Shown here piece by piece: positions 19,295 through 28,005 of a stretch of DNA of 33,583 bases. Source of the DNA: a virus; the IMG/VR virus record IMGVR_UViG_3300037587_000539, positions 1 to 33,583 of that record. The stretch is one strand, 5' to 3'. The notes beneath the pieces are model-generated. The model did not search any database. It had not been told where the DNA came from and was given only the letters and a program-made list of their open reading frames with translations. Position 1 is the first letter of the stretch. Each line of letters opens with the position of its first letter. The position numbers and the translations under genes were made by a program.

Positions 19295-19311
19295 CAAATA
19301 AGGGAATGACG

Positions 19312-20409
19312 ATGAAGAAGCAAAAAATTTACGCAGAAGTTTTGGAAGATGTTGCGTTAGAACAGTTTAATGACGCTATGGCTCAAGATTTCGTTGTTCA
19401 AGGTGCGTTAATGCCAGATGCTCACATGGGCTACTCTTTACCAATTGGCGCTGTTGTAGCAACTAAAGGCGTGATAGTTCCGGCCTGGGTTGGTTATGAC
19501 ATCGGCTGCGGCATGTGTGCTATACCAACTACATACAACGTCGATGAAATTAAAATATTCGCCAAGGAGATATTTGATAAAATTTATGAACTGGTTCCTG
19601 TTGGTTTTAACGTAAATCAAAAGAATATCGAATGTGATTTGTCGCCTAATGATTTGTCAGAGTTAGGTCAAAAAGCATTTGAAGCCAGAAAAGGGTTTAG
19701 ATCTCTTGGTTCGCTTGGTGGCGGTAATCACTTTATTGAAATCGGACAAGATGAAAGCAATTGTGTCTGGATTGTGATTCATTCGGGATCTCGCGGCCTA
19801 GGTCATGGCATAGCGCAAGAATACATGCGGCTTGCATCTGGTGACGGCAAGGTTAGAGAGGGTCATTTCGGGCTAGACGTTAATAGCGAAGGCGGTAAAA
19901 ATTACATTAACGATATGAATTGGGCGCTTGATTTCGCATTGGCCAACAGAAAAGAAATGATGTGCAGAATCGAACATGCAATGTCAGCCTATTGTAAAGG
20001 GTGGGTTAGATGGCCCGAATTAATCAACAGGAACCATAATCACGCCGAAGAAAAGAATGGGCTATGGATCCACCGCAAGGGCGCGACACACGCCGAGCAC
20101 AACATGCTAGGCGTCATCCCAGGCAATATGCGTGACGGATCATTCATCGTTAGAGGTAAGGGCAATCCTGATTCGTTATTTTCAAGCTCTCATGGTGCTG
20201 GTCGAGTTCTCGGCAGAAAGGCGGCAAAGAAAGCGTTGAACACTGATGACTTTAGAAAGGAAATGATCGGTATTACCGCAAAGGTTGAAGATTGTACGCT
20301 GGACGAATCGCCAATGGCCTATAAAAACATCTTTGAAGTGATGGAATTGCAAAAAGATTTAATAGAAGTCTTGCATCATATCAAACCTTTGATTAATATT
20401 AAGGGGTAA
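19312..20409 (+). CDS. rtcB: RtcB-type RNA ligase
   Basis: The 365-aa enzyme joins RNA 2',3'-cyclic phosphate or 3'-phosphate ends to 5'-OH ends with GTP and Mn2+, repairing cleaved tRNA. Signatures in order: PDAHMGYSLPIGAV, GYDIGCGM with Asp63 and Cys66 (metal), GGGNHFIEIG with His140, HSGSRGLGH with His157, NHNHAEE (His244) and LFSSSHGAGRVLG with His294, the guanylated histidine. All metal and catalytic residues are present; it is shorter than E. coli RtcB (about 408 aa). The ATG 7 bases from AGGG is preferred to the one six bases upstream. A tRNA gene starts 8 bases after its stop, suggesting a repair role against tRNA-cutting host nucleases. Confidence 0.93.
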   Translation: MKKQKIYAEVLEDVALEQFNDAMAQDFVVQGALMPDAHMGYSLPIGAVVATKGVIVPAWVGYDIGCGMCAIPTTYNVDEIKIFAKEIFDKIYELVPVGFNVNQKNIECDLSPNDLSELGQKAFEARKGFRSLGSLGGGNHFIEIGQDESNCVWIVIHSGSRGLGHGIAQEYMRLASGDGKVREGHFGLDVNSEGGKNYINDMNWALDFALANRKEMMCRIEHAMSAYCKGWVRWPELINRNHNHAEEKNGLWIHRKGATHAEHNMLGVIPGNMRDGSFIVRGKGNPDSLFSSSHGAGRVLGRKAAKKALNTDDFRKEMIGITAKVEDCTLDESPMAYKNIFEVMELQKDLIEVLHHIKPLINIKG

Positions 20410-20417
20410 ATAGAAAT

Positions 20418-20494
20418 CAGTGTGTAGCTCAGCTTGGTAGAGTAGCGGCTTTGGATGCCGGCGGTCATAGGTTCGAATCCTATCTCACTGACCA
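20418..20494 (+). tRNA. tRNA-Pro(UGG)
   Basis: A 77-nt tRNA with encoded CCA. The anticodon TGG (20452-20454) sits in a TTTGGAT loop. The T arm is perfect (ATAGG / TTCGAAT / CCTAT), the D arm is AGCTTGGTA, and the 3' end is CTCACTGACCA. Similar to E. coli tRNA-Pro(UGG) in the D loop, variable region and T arm. Oddities: a U-U mismatch in the acceptor stem, a G-G mismatch at the top of the anticodon stem, and A instead of the usual G at position 37. It lies 8 bases after rtcB. Confidence 0.88.
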
Positions 20495-20500
20495 AATTTA

Positions 20501-20509
20501 TGTTATAGT
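20501..20509 (+). promoter_or_regulatory. Extended -10 element before the pseudoknot RNA
   Basis: TGTTATAGT fits the extended -10 consensus TGnTATAAT with one mismatch. It would start RNA at about 20516, ten bases before the first paired base of the structured RNA. No -35 is visible, as is usual for extended -10 promoters. Confidence 0.4.
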
Positions 20510-20525
20510 ACTATTGTTGATTGGA

Positions 20526-20614
20526 TCCGACCCAAAAGACACTAGATAGGGTTTTGCTTTAGTAGTTGCGTGCATCGTGCACGGTCGGACAGCTGCTAAA
20601 CCAGAACCTTTTTT
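20526..20614 (+). ncRNA. Nested-pseudoknot structured RNA with intrinsic terminator
   Basis: Four helices fit together. P1: 20548-20556 AGGGTTTTG with 20602-20609 CAGAACCT (one bulged G). P2: 20558-20568 TTTAGTAGTTG with 20590-20600 CAGCTGCTAAA (11 bp, two G.U). P3: CGTGCA with TGCACG around TCG (20569-20583). The six bases left between P3 and P2 (GTCGGA, 20584-20589) pair exactly with TCCGAC at 20526-20531, making a pseudoknot. Six T end the element (20609-20614). The order of strands is like HDV-type ribozymes, but the P4 and J4/2 parts with the catalytic C are missing. I know of no family to name. It starts 31 bases after the tRNA. Confidence 0.6.
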
Positions 20615-25739: not shown

Positions 25740-26670
25740 TCAAAAGGCCACAAGGCAAGAGCAAGATCCCACCAATCAAGCCGGGACCAGGGCAAGAGCT
25801 ACCCGCGACAATAACCAGCGCTTAAACAATGCGGCTCGCAAAATATTAGCAGCATGGCGAGATGTCGACGCTAAAAAAACTACTCGCAAGAAAATAATCA
25901 ACGAACTATCTAGCAATGAAACGTTAGATTTTTATGTTTATGATTTAACCTCTCGCGGCAAAGAAGATTTGTTTGTTGAAATATCAGATTCAGTAAATGA
26001 AGAATTGGAAACGGCCGAAGTAACACCGCCCTTTGATTGGTACTATCAGCAGTATATTGAAACGGCATATAGAGGCGGTACAATACAAGAAAACGCAGAG
26101 ATAGCCGTTCTGCTTGCCCTGGTCGTCGGCTCTATAACTATTGAAACCGCTAGCATATTATCGTCATCACAGTATCTTGATTTACTCAAGGCCGCGGTAA
26201 ATAAGAATTATCCACTATTTAAGGGGCTTTCGGAGACCACAAGTAAGCAAGTATTCCAGGTAATAACTGATGGTATTGACGCCGGGTTAAGCAAAAGCGC
26301 AATTAGACGAAAAATCATAGAACGCTTCGAGGTTGCAAAATCATCAGCCAAGCGGATAGTCGACACCGAAGTTAACCGGGCATATAACAACGCCAGGACT
26401 GATTTAATCAAATTCTATCGCGATAATGGCGAACCATTAGCGGTTCAGCACATATCAGCATTACTAAAAACAACCAGAATTAATCATGCGGCCAGGCATG
26501 GTAGAGTATACACACCAGAGCAACAGGATAGATGGTGGGCCGAGGGGAGCAACAGAATAAATTGTAAATGTAGCATCAGGGCAATAGTAGTTAATCGTGA
26601 TGGCACGGTTGCGAATAAAGCAGCACAGAATAAAGTTATCGAACGTGGCAAAGAGATTTTTGAGGGTTAA
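25723..26670 (+). CDS. Mu gpF-like minor head protein
   Basis: The 315-aa protein has the MuF C-terminal module: AKSSAKRIVDTEVNRAYNNA, TTRINHAARHGRVYTPEQQD then WWAEGSNRINCKCSIRAIVV (Cys-x-Cys). Such proteins line the portal/capsid and some are injected. The N-terminal part is charged and helical. Its last 35 bases are also used, on the other strand, by the end of the HNH gene. Confidence 0.85.
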   Translation: MTLKTNQKATRQEQDPTNQAGTRARATRDNNQRLNNAARKILAAWRDVDAKKTTRKKIINELSSNETLDFYVYDLTSRGKEDLFVEISDSVNEELETAEVTPPFDWYYQQYIETAYRGGTIQENAEIAVLLALVVGSITIETASILSSSQYLDLLKAAVNKNYPLFKGLSETTSKQVFQVITDGIDAGLSKSAIRRKIIERFEVAKSSAKRIVDTEVNRAYNNARTDLIKFYRDNGEPLAVQHISALLKTTRINHAARHGRVYTPEQQDRWWAEGSNRINCKCSIRAIVVNRDGTVANKAAQNKVIERGKEIFEG

Positions 26671-27274
26671 TCTCGCCAGCTATACGGATTAAATAACCTC
26701 TTAACGGCTGATCTTGCTTCATAGCTACTTTGTAGACATGGTTGCTCTTGAATTTTTTGTAAGTATCACTGGCTTTTTTAGAGGTATCGAAGTACCCAAG
26801 ATGATTAGGCTTTCCGTTGACGTAGCATGTTGATTTAAATCTACCGTGACCATTACTAAAGACAACCCCTTTAGGGTGGTTACCTCTTGCCTTTCCGCAA
26901 TCGTTTAATAAGCTATTTATTTGTGAGGTGATAAAAATACATGTTTCAGGTGAATATATTTTATTGCCAGATTTAATGATGTCCTTATCAAGTTGCTTAT
27001 CTTGCCAATCCTGTTCAACCATCCAAGATCTAAAATTAGAAAAAGTTAACCACTCCTCGCAAATAGTGCAGCCTTTATAAGTTGGGCTGCTTTCATGCCA
27101 TTTAGTAGAGTAGCAACGCTCAAGAACTCCTAGCCATCTTTTATAAAAAGGGCAAGTGTATTGCTTGCCTTCAATTACGGGCTTAACTTGATACCAAGCA
27201 TCATTAGTGGCAACATTATAAATAAGCCTTCTTAACCATAATGATTTTTTACTTGCTGGAATTTCCTTAAACAT
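26636..27274 (-). CDS. HNH-type homing endonuclease with AP2-like domain
   Basis: This 212-aa minus-strand protein has the layout of phage HNH-AP2 endonucleases: YKRWLGVLERCYS, GCTICEEWLTFSNFRSWM, QLDKDIIKSGNKIYSPETCI and a C-terminal AP2-like DNA-binding part (KGVVFSNGHGRFKSTCYVNG, NHLGYFDTSKKASDTYKKFK). Such genes spread by cutting phages that lack them. It is inserted in reverse between the MuF-like and protease genes, and its 3' end overlaps MuF by 35 bases. AGAGGTATTAGTT precedes the ATG. HNH residues are not fully mapped by eye. Confidence 0.8.
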   Translation of the reverse strand: MFKEIPASKKSLWLRRLIYNVATNDAWYQVKPVIEGKQYTCPFYKRWLGVLERCYSTKWHESSPTYKGCTICEEWLTFSNFRSWMVEQDWQDKQLDKDIIKSGNKIYSPETCIFITSQINSLLNDCGKARGNHPKGVVFSNGHGRFKSTCYVNGKPNHLGYFDTSKKASDTYKKFKSNHVYKVAMKQDQPLRGYLIRIAGEINPQKSLCHVR

Positions 27275-27285
27275 AACTAATACCT

Positions 27286-28005
27286 CTAATGATTTAGTTG
27301 GGATTTGTGAACAAATAGCTTTTCAACGCCTTTCTTGCCTTTGCCACTTTTAGCCACACTTACAGATATTTCTTTTTTCCAAACGCAAGCAAAGTCATCT
27401 GGTGCGGCGTATTCGCTTATAAATACTTGATGGCCAGAAGCGCACCAGTCGCGGCACTTTTGCCAGAATTCAGTATGGTTAAAATCACTACCTTTATAGC
27501 CTGTTGTTTTTGCGTACGGAGGATCGCAATATACAATTGATTTGGTTGGCAGGTCTAGATATCGATACCCACAATCAATGAAGTTAACTCCCTGTATTTT
27601 TGGACTTTGCTTTGTTGCGTTACCCTTGGCTGCTCTGACAAAATCCTCTCTTGCCCTGCCCACCGCAAACGAACTGCCAAACATTGCGCTAAACGATAAC
27701 GCAAAAAGCATCAAGCACTCGAGTTGAGTTAATTGGCTGAAATGTTTTTTCTTTGCATCCTCATAATCAGCACGCGTAAACTCGCTATTATTTAAAGGGA
27801 TTGACTCAGGGTTATCCCTAACAAGTTTTAACGCGGATATTAAGTGCTGATTACTATCAGCCCCAATCCGATTACCCTCAACCTTATCGATCATATTTGC
27901 ACCACCAACAAACGGCTCAACGTACCATTGGCCTTCCTTGCGATCTTTTAGGATAATTGGCAATAAGTGCTTTGCTATTCTATTTTTGCTACCCATGTAT
28001 TTCAT
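27286..28005 (-). CDS. Dam-like DNA adenine methyltransferase (D12 class)
   Basis: The 239-aa enzyme moves a methyl group from S-adenosylmethionine to N6 of adenine. Motifs: MKYMGSKNRIAKHLLP at the start, PFVGGAN (31-37, SAM site) and IVYCDPPY (DPPY 161-164, catalytic), in alpha-class order. It lies between the HNH gene and a 54-aa gene in the reversed cassette, so it may protect the phage DNA from restriction or from its own endonuclease. The target site cannot be told; GATC is only a guess. Confidence 0.9.
   Translation of the reverse strand: MKYMGSKNRIAKHLLPIILKDRKEGQWYVEPFVGGANMIDKVEGNRIGADSNQHLISALKLVRDNPESIPLNNSEFTRADYEDAKKKHFSQLTQLECLMLFALSFSAMFGSSFAVGRAREDFVRAAKGNATKQSPKIQGVNFIDCGYRYLDLPTKSIVYCDPPYAKTTGYKGSDFNHTEFWQKCRDWCASGHQVFISEYAAPDDFACVWKKEISVSVAKSGKGKKGVEKLFVHKSQLNH

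Follow-up and report, generated by a model that had tools for sequence, protein, structure and literature searches.

A predicted family of phage RNAs in which a 5' hairpin loop pairs with a self-terminating hairpin

Introduction

In lambdoid phages, nutR and tR1 lie behind cro, and the late leader (6S RNA) is a short transcript made from a dedicated promoter and stopped by a terminator ahead of the late genes. The put RNA of phage HK022 consists of two plain hairpins (~70 nt) and is present as putL and putR, the place of putR being behind cro (PMC9378689). HDV-like and theta ribozymes (including minimal drz) follow the nested double-pseudoknot order P1-P2-P3-P3'-P1'-P2', keep this structure as their sequences vary, and occur in phages, sometimes beside tRNAs, in which case the cleavage site of the tRNA-associated forms lies at most 5 nt to either side of the tRNA 3' end (PMC10879173). 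At the other end of the size range, ROOL and GOLLD are large phage RNAs that form homo-oligomeric complexes (PMC12286853).

The element described here comes from a tailed-phage genome fragment (IMG/VR virus record IMGVR_UViG_3300037587_000539), analysed over its whole length of 33,583 nt, hereafter the window. It occupies 20521-20614 (+) and is a compact RNA made of a small 5' hairpin followed by a long self-terminating hairpin, with a predicted length of 94-131 nt across members. Its short promoter-to-terminator layout recalls the lambdoid late leader; unlike that RNA, it is pseudoknotted and not confined to a late promoter, and no Q gene was identified. Like put, it is a small structured phage RNA near transcription-unit starts, found behind cro in freshwater phages as HK022 putR is. 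It departs from the two plain hairpins of put by joining a kissing hairpin to a terminator hairpin, by a loop-bulge contact and a T-run (neither being described for put in the passages of PMC9378689 consulted), by its own -10 hexamer, and by its single copy in the window and in Vibrio phage 1.135.O (descriptor scan). HDV-like and theta ribozymes share its strand order, its tolerance of sequence change and its phage setting, whereas they possess a J4/2 with the catalytic cytosine at the first position before P2', both of which the element lacks, and cleave at the 5' base of P1, whose 5' strand is free (PMC10879173); the corresponding strand of the element is closed in a hairpin loop, and the element ends in an intrinsic terminator. 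ROOL and GOLLD are likewise phage-associated structured RNAs, some near tRNAs, and build complexes via RNA-RNA contacts (PMC12286853), but they are far larger, and the element matches neither Rfam family.

No Rfam 15 family was placed on the element itself by covariance models run at the gathering score and at loose E-values; in the Vibrio loci these models reported tRNA only, and in two freshwater phages also RF02932, downstream of the element. The literature search returned no description of it. The element represents an uncatalogued new RNA family, predicted from sequence, of the structured phage RNA kind, adding to phage biology a recurring compact fold that is undetected by any Rfam model. 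A preliminary description of the locus had proposed a new structured RNA with its own promoter-like signal and an end resembling an intrinsic terminator; this proposal is supported, and so is the lack of an Rfam match.

A hairpin loop paired with a bulge

The minimum-energy fold of the element (-37.4 kcal/mol, z = -4.1, equalled by 0 of 200 shuffles) opens with the hairpin H1 (20521-20535, +), in which a TTGG/CCAA stem that covaries across members closes the 7-nt loop ATCCGAC. A gap of just ~13 nt follows before P2, whose 5' strand (20549-20568, +) and 3' strand (20590-20609, +) are supported by sequence, fold and a junction test: at the base, GGGTTTTG (20549-20556) forms eight pairs with CAGAACCT (20602-20609), the outermost being G-U, and above a C-C mismatch (20557/20601), TTTAGTAGTTG (20558-20568) forms 11 pairs with CAGCTGCTAAA (20590-20600). 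P2 carries the hairpin P3 (20569-20583, +), seen in the minimum-energy fold and the junction test, with six pairs between CGTGCA (20569-20574) and TGCACG (20578-20583) around a TCG loop. Between P3' and P2' remains a six-base bulge, K' (GTCGGA, 20584-20589, +), exactly complementary to the kissing strand K (TCCGAC, 20526-20531, +) within the H1 loop, and bulge, P3 and P2 join without a spare base.

These helices, the complementarity of GTCGGA with TCCGAC and the zero-spare junction are all found where the preliminary description had placed them. It had also drawn a three-strand pseudoknot, of which the pairing is exact; TCCGAC, however, is not a free strand but part of the H1 loop, which had been missed, and the pseudoknot should be redrawn as a kissing contact from hairpin loop to bulge. 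The HDV-like strand order without the catalytic part was correctly recognised, as the absence of any nucleotide between K' and P2' leaves no J4/2.

A descriptor of the whole arrangement gives the element a score of 32.6, against 25.6 for the runner-up within the window, and finds a single place scoring as high in ~7 Mb of block-shuffled sequence. The structure is very likely real, and most of the remaining doubt about chance is removed by homologues with compensatory changes.

Promoter and terminator signals

Upstream of H1 lies an extended -10 element, TGTTATAGT (20501-20509, +), with the hexamer TATAGT (20504-20509) preceded by TGt, and the long hairpin is followed by six T (20609-20614, +), an intrinsic-terminator-like end; both signals had been claimed and are present. 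The promoter of the window is weak, having no clear -35 and escaping a two-hexamer scan, and it offers the extended -10 only, where many Vibrio members have TTGCA(A/T)-N17-TATAAT. In homologues in which H1 could be placed, a -10 hexamer (TATAAT, TATACT, TAGAAT or TATATT) stands 4-11 nt before H1, which would place the start of the RNA at or just 5' of this hairpin. The conserved 5' end GTTGAT (20517-20522, +) fits a predicted start at ~20516-20517 and corresponds to the GTTG(A/G)TT aligned between the window, the homologue L116 and 11 Vibrio phage homologues.

A run of five to seven T directly follows P2 in 30 of 30 curated members, a count to be read with the fact that most members were found by searches requiring a T-run, while those found by blastn were not selected for it. 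A terminator scan limited to 8-nt loops misses the terminator of the window. An autonomous unit, made of a promoter, a pseudoknotted RNA and an intrinsic terminator and predicted to yield a discrete RNA, is well supported by these signals.

In the promoter regions of two Vibrio phage homologues (L159 and L203, ~50 nt before H1), an inverted repeat CCCACT...AGTGGG surrounds TTGCATTTGTGTGG. This repeat, clear in L203 and L206, is kept across Vibrio phages whose RNA differs, and it looks like an operator.

Homologues and compensatory changes

Searching phages and plasmids by blastn with the window element itself returned no homologue, and the nearest rtcB relatives (L001-L005) do not carry it. 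More than 40 homologous loci were instead found via terminase relatives and BLAST, in Vibrio phages and in freshwater and marine IMG/VR phages. The terminase relatives include L021 and L022, in which a similar RNA ends 2 nt before tRNA-Ser and from which a DNA pattern and blastn led to the Vibrio phage family, as well as L116, whose terminase is 72% identical and which has the element. A 3'-end pattern added IMG/VR phages (L163, L169, L177, L178, L180 and L187); a kissing-sequence pattern (TTGAAAGA...TCTTTCAA) gave matches that were mostly chance or coding. The copies nearest to that of the window are those of L116 and of Vibrio phages (L158, L159, L195-L206), which share its 5' GTTG(A/G)TT and, for the most part, an AT(T)GCC-type tail; L198 is the copy of phage vB_VnaS-L3. 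Contig scans of bacterial genomes revealed no copy. In Vibrio phage V039C (L157:2510-2700), the promoter-side sequence is kept and the element lost, a natural deletion.

Because a MAFFT alignment of whole RNAs puts P2 wrongly in the L159 group, pairs were counted by helix register. Of 30 curated members, 29 have an H1 loop that forms six or more contiguous pairs with the inside of the long hairpin (17 different helices), and the H1 stem and P2 base covary likewise in the counts for this set, counts in which the pairing of K is high partly by construction, its strands having been picked as complementary. A member's own H1 loop averages 6.5 pairs, against 4.5 with the loops of other members, and shuffled loops reach six in 11% of cases. 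An independent test used phages fetched only via a Cro protein, with H1 chosen by its stem alone and its partner unseen: none of 20,000 permutations reached the observed summed complementarity, despite a few misplaced H1, and the set contributed further helices (CTGAAAC/GTTTCAG, ATCGAAC/GTTCGAT, CGTGGAA/TTCCACG, TTGAACC/GGTTCAA and GTGATG/CATCAC). The kissing pairing is kept through at least 20 different sequences, as in GTCGTGT/ACACGAC versus GTCGAGT/ACTCGAC. Among 17 bulge-type members tested, the junction leaves exactly zero nucleotides in 11 (the window and ten others), compared with 6 of 340 shifted controls, and most bulge-type homologues have at the same position a P3 of differing sequence.

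Compensatory changes in homologues were the check that the preliminary description had named in advance, and both sides of the pairing do change together. The comparison of homologous sequences shows the predicted fold and kissing helix to be under selection, while covariation fits pairing within one RNA and pairing between two copies equally well. Such clear covariation in a pseudoknot that runs from a 5' hairpin to a terminator, rewritten at least 20 times, is unusual. Pairing is poor in a few members (five pairs in L149, irregular in L230, L199 and L180), and in a Vibrio subtype (L022, L021, L033 and L147-L154) a second, internal hairpin loop takes the place of the bulge. L021 and L022 have, moreover, an extra covarying helix of 12-13 bp that joins the sequence upstream of P2 to the hairpin interior (AAAACGGATAGA/TCTATCTGTTTT in L022, GCAATTTGGTAGA/TCTATCAAGTTGC in L021), not present in the window.

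Genomic neighbourhood

The window encodes tape measure, replication O/P-like, Erf, RecE-like, terminase, portal and head genes, as well as rtcB (19306-20409, +, phrog_1075) and a tRNA-Pro(TGG) gene (20418-20494, +, tRNA call) that encodes its CCA. The element sits between tRNA-Pro and small ORFs preceding the terminase genes, and neither rtcB nor tRNA-Pro is a constant partner. A special link with rtcB does not hold, since the nearest relatives of this gene (L001-L005) are without the element and no homologue adjoins rtcB; the suggested roles as a nuclease decoy and as an RtcB substrate are not supported either. The link with tRNAs stands in part: in L021, L022, L147 and L149, a tRNA lies 2-3 nt behind the T-run, whereas many homologues have no tRNA, and in the window the order is reversed, the tRNA coming before the element.

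Other members have different neighbours. Freshwater phages carry the element ~15-60 nt behind a P22_Cro-family gene, and L169 has it ahead of a KilA-N/RecT/SSB gene run (SSB being identified by reading the sequence). In several Vibrio phages it is followed by tRNAs and terminase, and the copy of Vibrio phage 1.135.O is flanked by the head morphogenesis and major capsid genes. Its position is downstream of early promoters when behind cro or before the recT run, and elsewhere in the window and in 1.135.O.

In two freshwater phages with a Cro-family gene upstream, a Betaproteobacteria-1 RNA (RF02932, 88 bits; L163:2412-2533 and L177:5389-5510) follows directly, ~20 nt behind the element. Also a structured RNA, it differs in having its own covariance model, and the two are separate modules, as L213-L225 have after cro a sequence very similar to Betaproteobacteria-1 RNA and no element.

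Possible modes of action

The explanation that we tentatively put first is that of an uncatalogued phage RNA gene family, an autonomous, kissing-clamped terminator hairpin probably acting by its shape in trans. H1 would form first and capture K' as it emerges, and the pairing of K' with the H1 loop would unite the P2 strands while the U-run is being made; the loop-bulge helix may stack on P2 and pre-organise the emerging terminator stem. Efficient termination would result, along with a compact, stable RNA closed at both ends, which would most likely act in trans on a bound protein (first candidates: RNA polymerase or an RNase), and the terminator would also separate neighbouring genes. Autonomy is suggested by the unrelated neighbours of the element across phages (Cro-family, KilA-N/RecT/SSB, tRNAs and terminase, head genes). 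Action by shape is probable because almost nothing is conserved beyond the fold and the promoter/terminator context, and shape acting on a protein is likelier than antisense pairing, since there is no conserved unpaired seed.

The main rival, somewhat less probable although to be taken seriously, sees a cis-acting leader whose kissing-clamped hairpin would be a regulated intrinsic terminator (attenuator), or else a put-like modifier of RNA polymerase; if a protein, RNA or ligand bound the H1 loop, which is exposed, P2 would form later and read-through would follow. In its favour, many phages have the element at the head of transcription units, either just behind a Cro-family gene, in the lambdoid place of nutR/tR1 or putR, or ahead of the KilA-N/RecT/SSB operon or of tRNAs and terminase genes, and K' directly abuts P2', well placed to nucleate the terminator. 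Some read-through must occur in the four phages whose T-run and following tRNA are 2-3 nt apart, an observation that fits a cis leader equally. Yet the copy of Vibrio phage 1.135.O lies inside a head-gene cluster and not at the head of an operon, and an alternative antiterminator fold was not found. The put-like form is further weakened by the single copy in the window and 1.135.O, where HK022 has both putL and putR, and by the two-hairpin, ~70-nt architecture of put, for which the passages of PMC9378689 consulted describe neither a kissing contact nor a T-run. Does the same covariation reflect contacts between copies? An RNA assembling into dimers or higher forms, as ROOL and GOLLD do, would leave the same H1 loop-bulge signal, one subtype (L022, L021) has a true loop-loop contact, and the association with tRNAs in phages recalls these homo-oligomers (PMC12286853); but the ~13-nt gap between H1 and P2 in the window makes an intramolecular contact easy, neither Rfam family matches the RNA, which is also much smaller, and assembly is improbable.

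Two further readings depend on the neighbouring tRNA. That the element is the ordinary terminator of the tRNA-Pro transcript, with a pseudoknot by coincidence, agrees with a stem and six T directly downstream of this gene; it is very improbable in view of the covarying kissing helix, the conserved 5' GTTGATT and the exact junction in unrelated contexts, and the homologues already contradict it. Processing of the tRNA by an HDV-like (theta) ribozyme would account for the strand order beside a phage tRNA, a reading made exceedingly improbable by the missing J4/2 and catalytic C (K' runs into P2' with no nucleotide in between), by a first K strand held in a hairpin loop and not at a free 5' end, by the 31 nt that separate the end of the tRNA (20494) from the start of K (20526) where +/-5 nt would be expected of tRNA-associated theta ribozymes, by a tRNA that encodes its CCA, and by the lack of any match to Rfam HDV models in the window or the Vibrio loci.

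A broader and more doubtful proposal is that the loop-bulge kissing helix gates the built-in terminator, making a widespread transcription switch, protein-free or protein-sensing, used at several genome places. If true, such a kissing-gated switch would be a functional counterpart of nut, put and Q with a new fold. The element may account for the way in which transcription is halted or let through in some phages, behind cro or ahead of the late genes.

Additional features of the loci

Downstream of the element, three loci (L159:1530-1860, L206:2630-2760 and L155:2790-3100) share a long conserved noncoding stretch. It contains a small hairpin, after which some copies have GATTT(A/G)CACAGCG, and it may be a further RNA related to Betaproteobacteria-1. 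After the T-run, L154 (2587-2689), L155 and L156 carry tRNA-like sequences (one annotated as tRNA-Und) where relatives have tRNAs; ARAGORN does not call them, and they may be decayed or unusual tRNAs. In the window, HNH endonuclease and DNA methyltransferase genes (26636-28005, -) form a moron-like insertion between those for head morphogenesis and head decoration.
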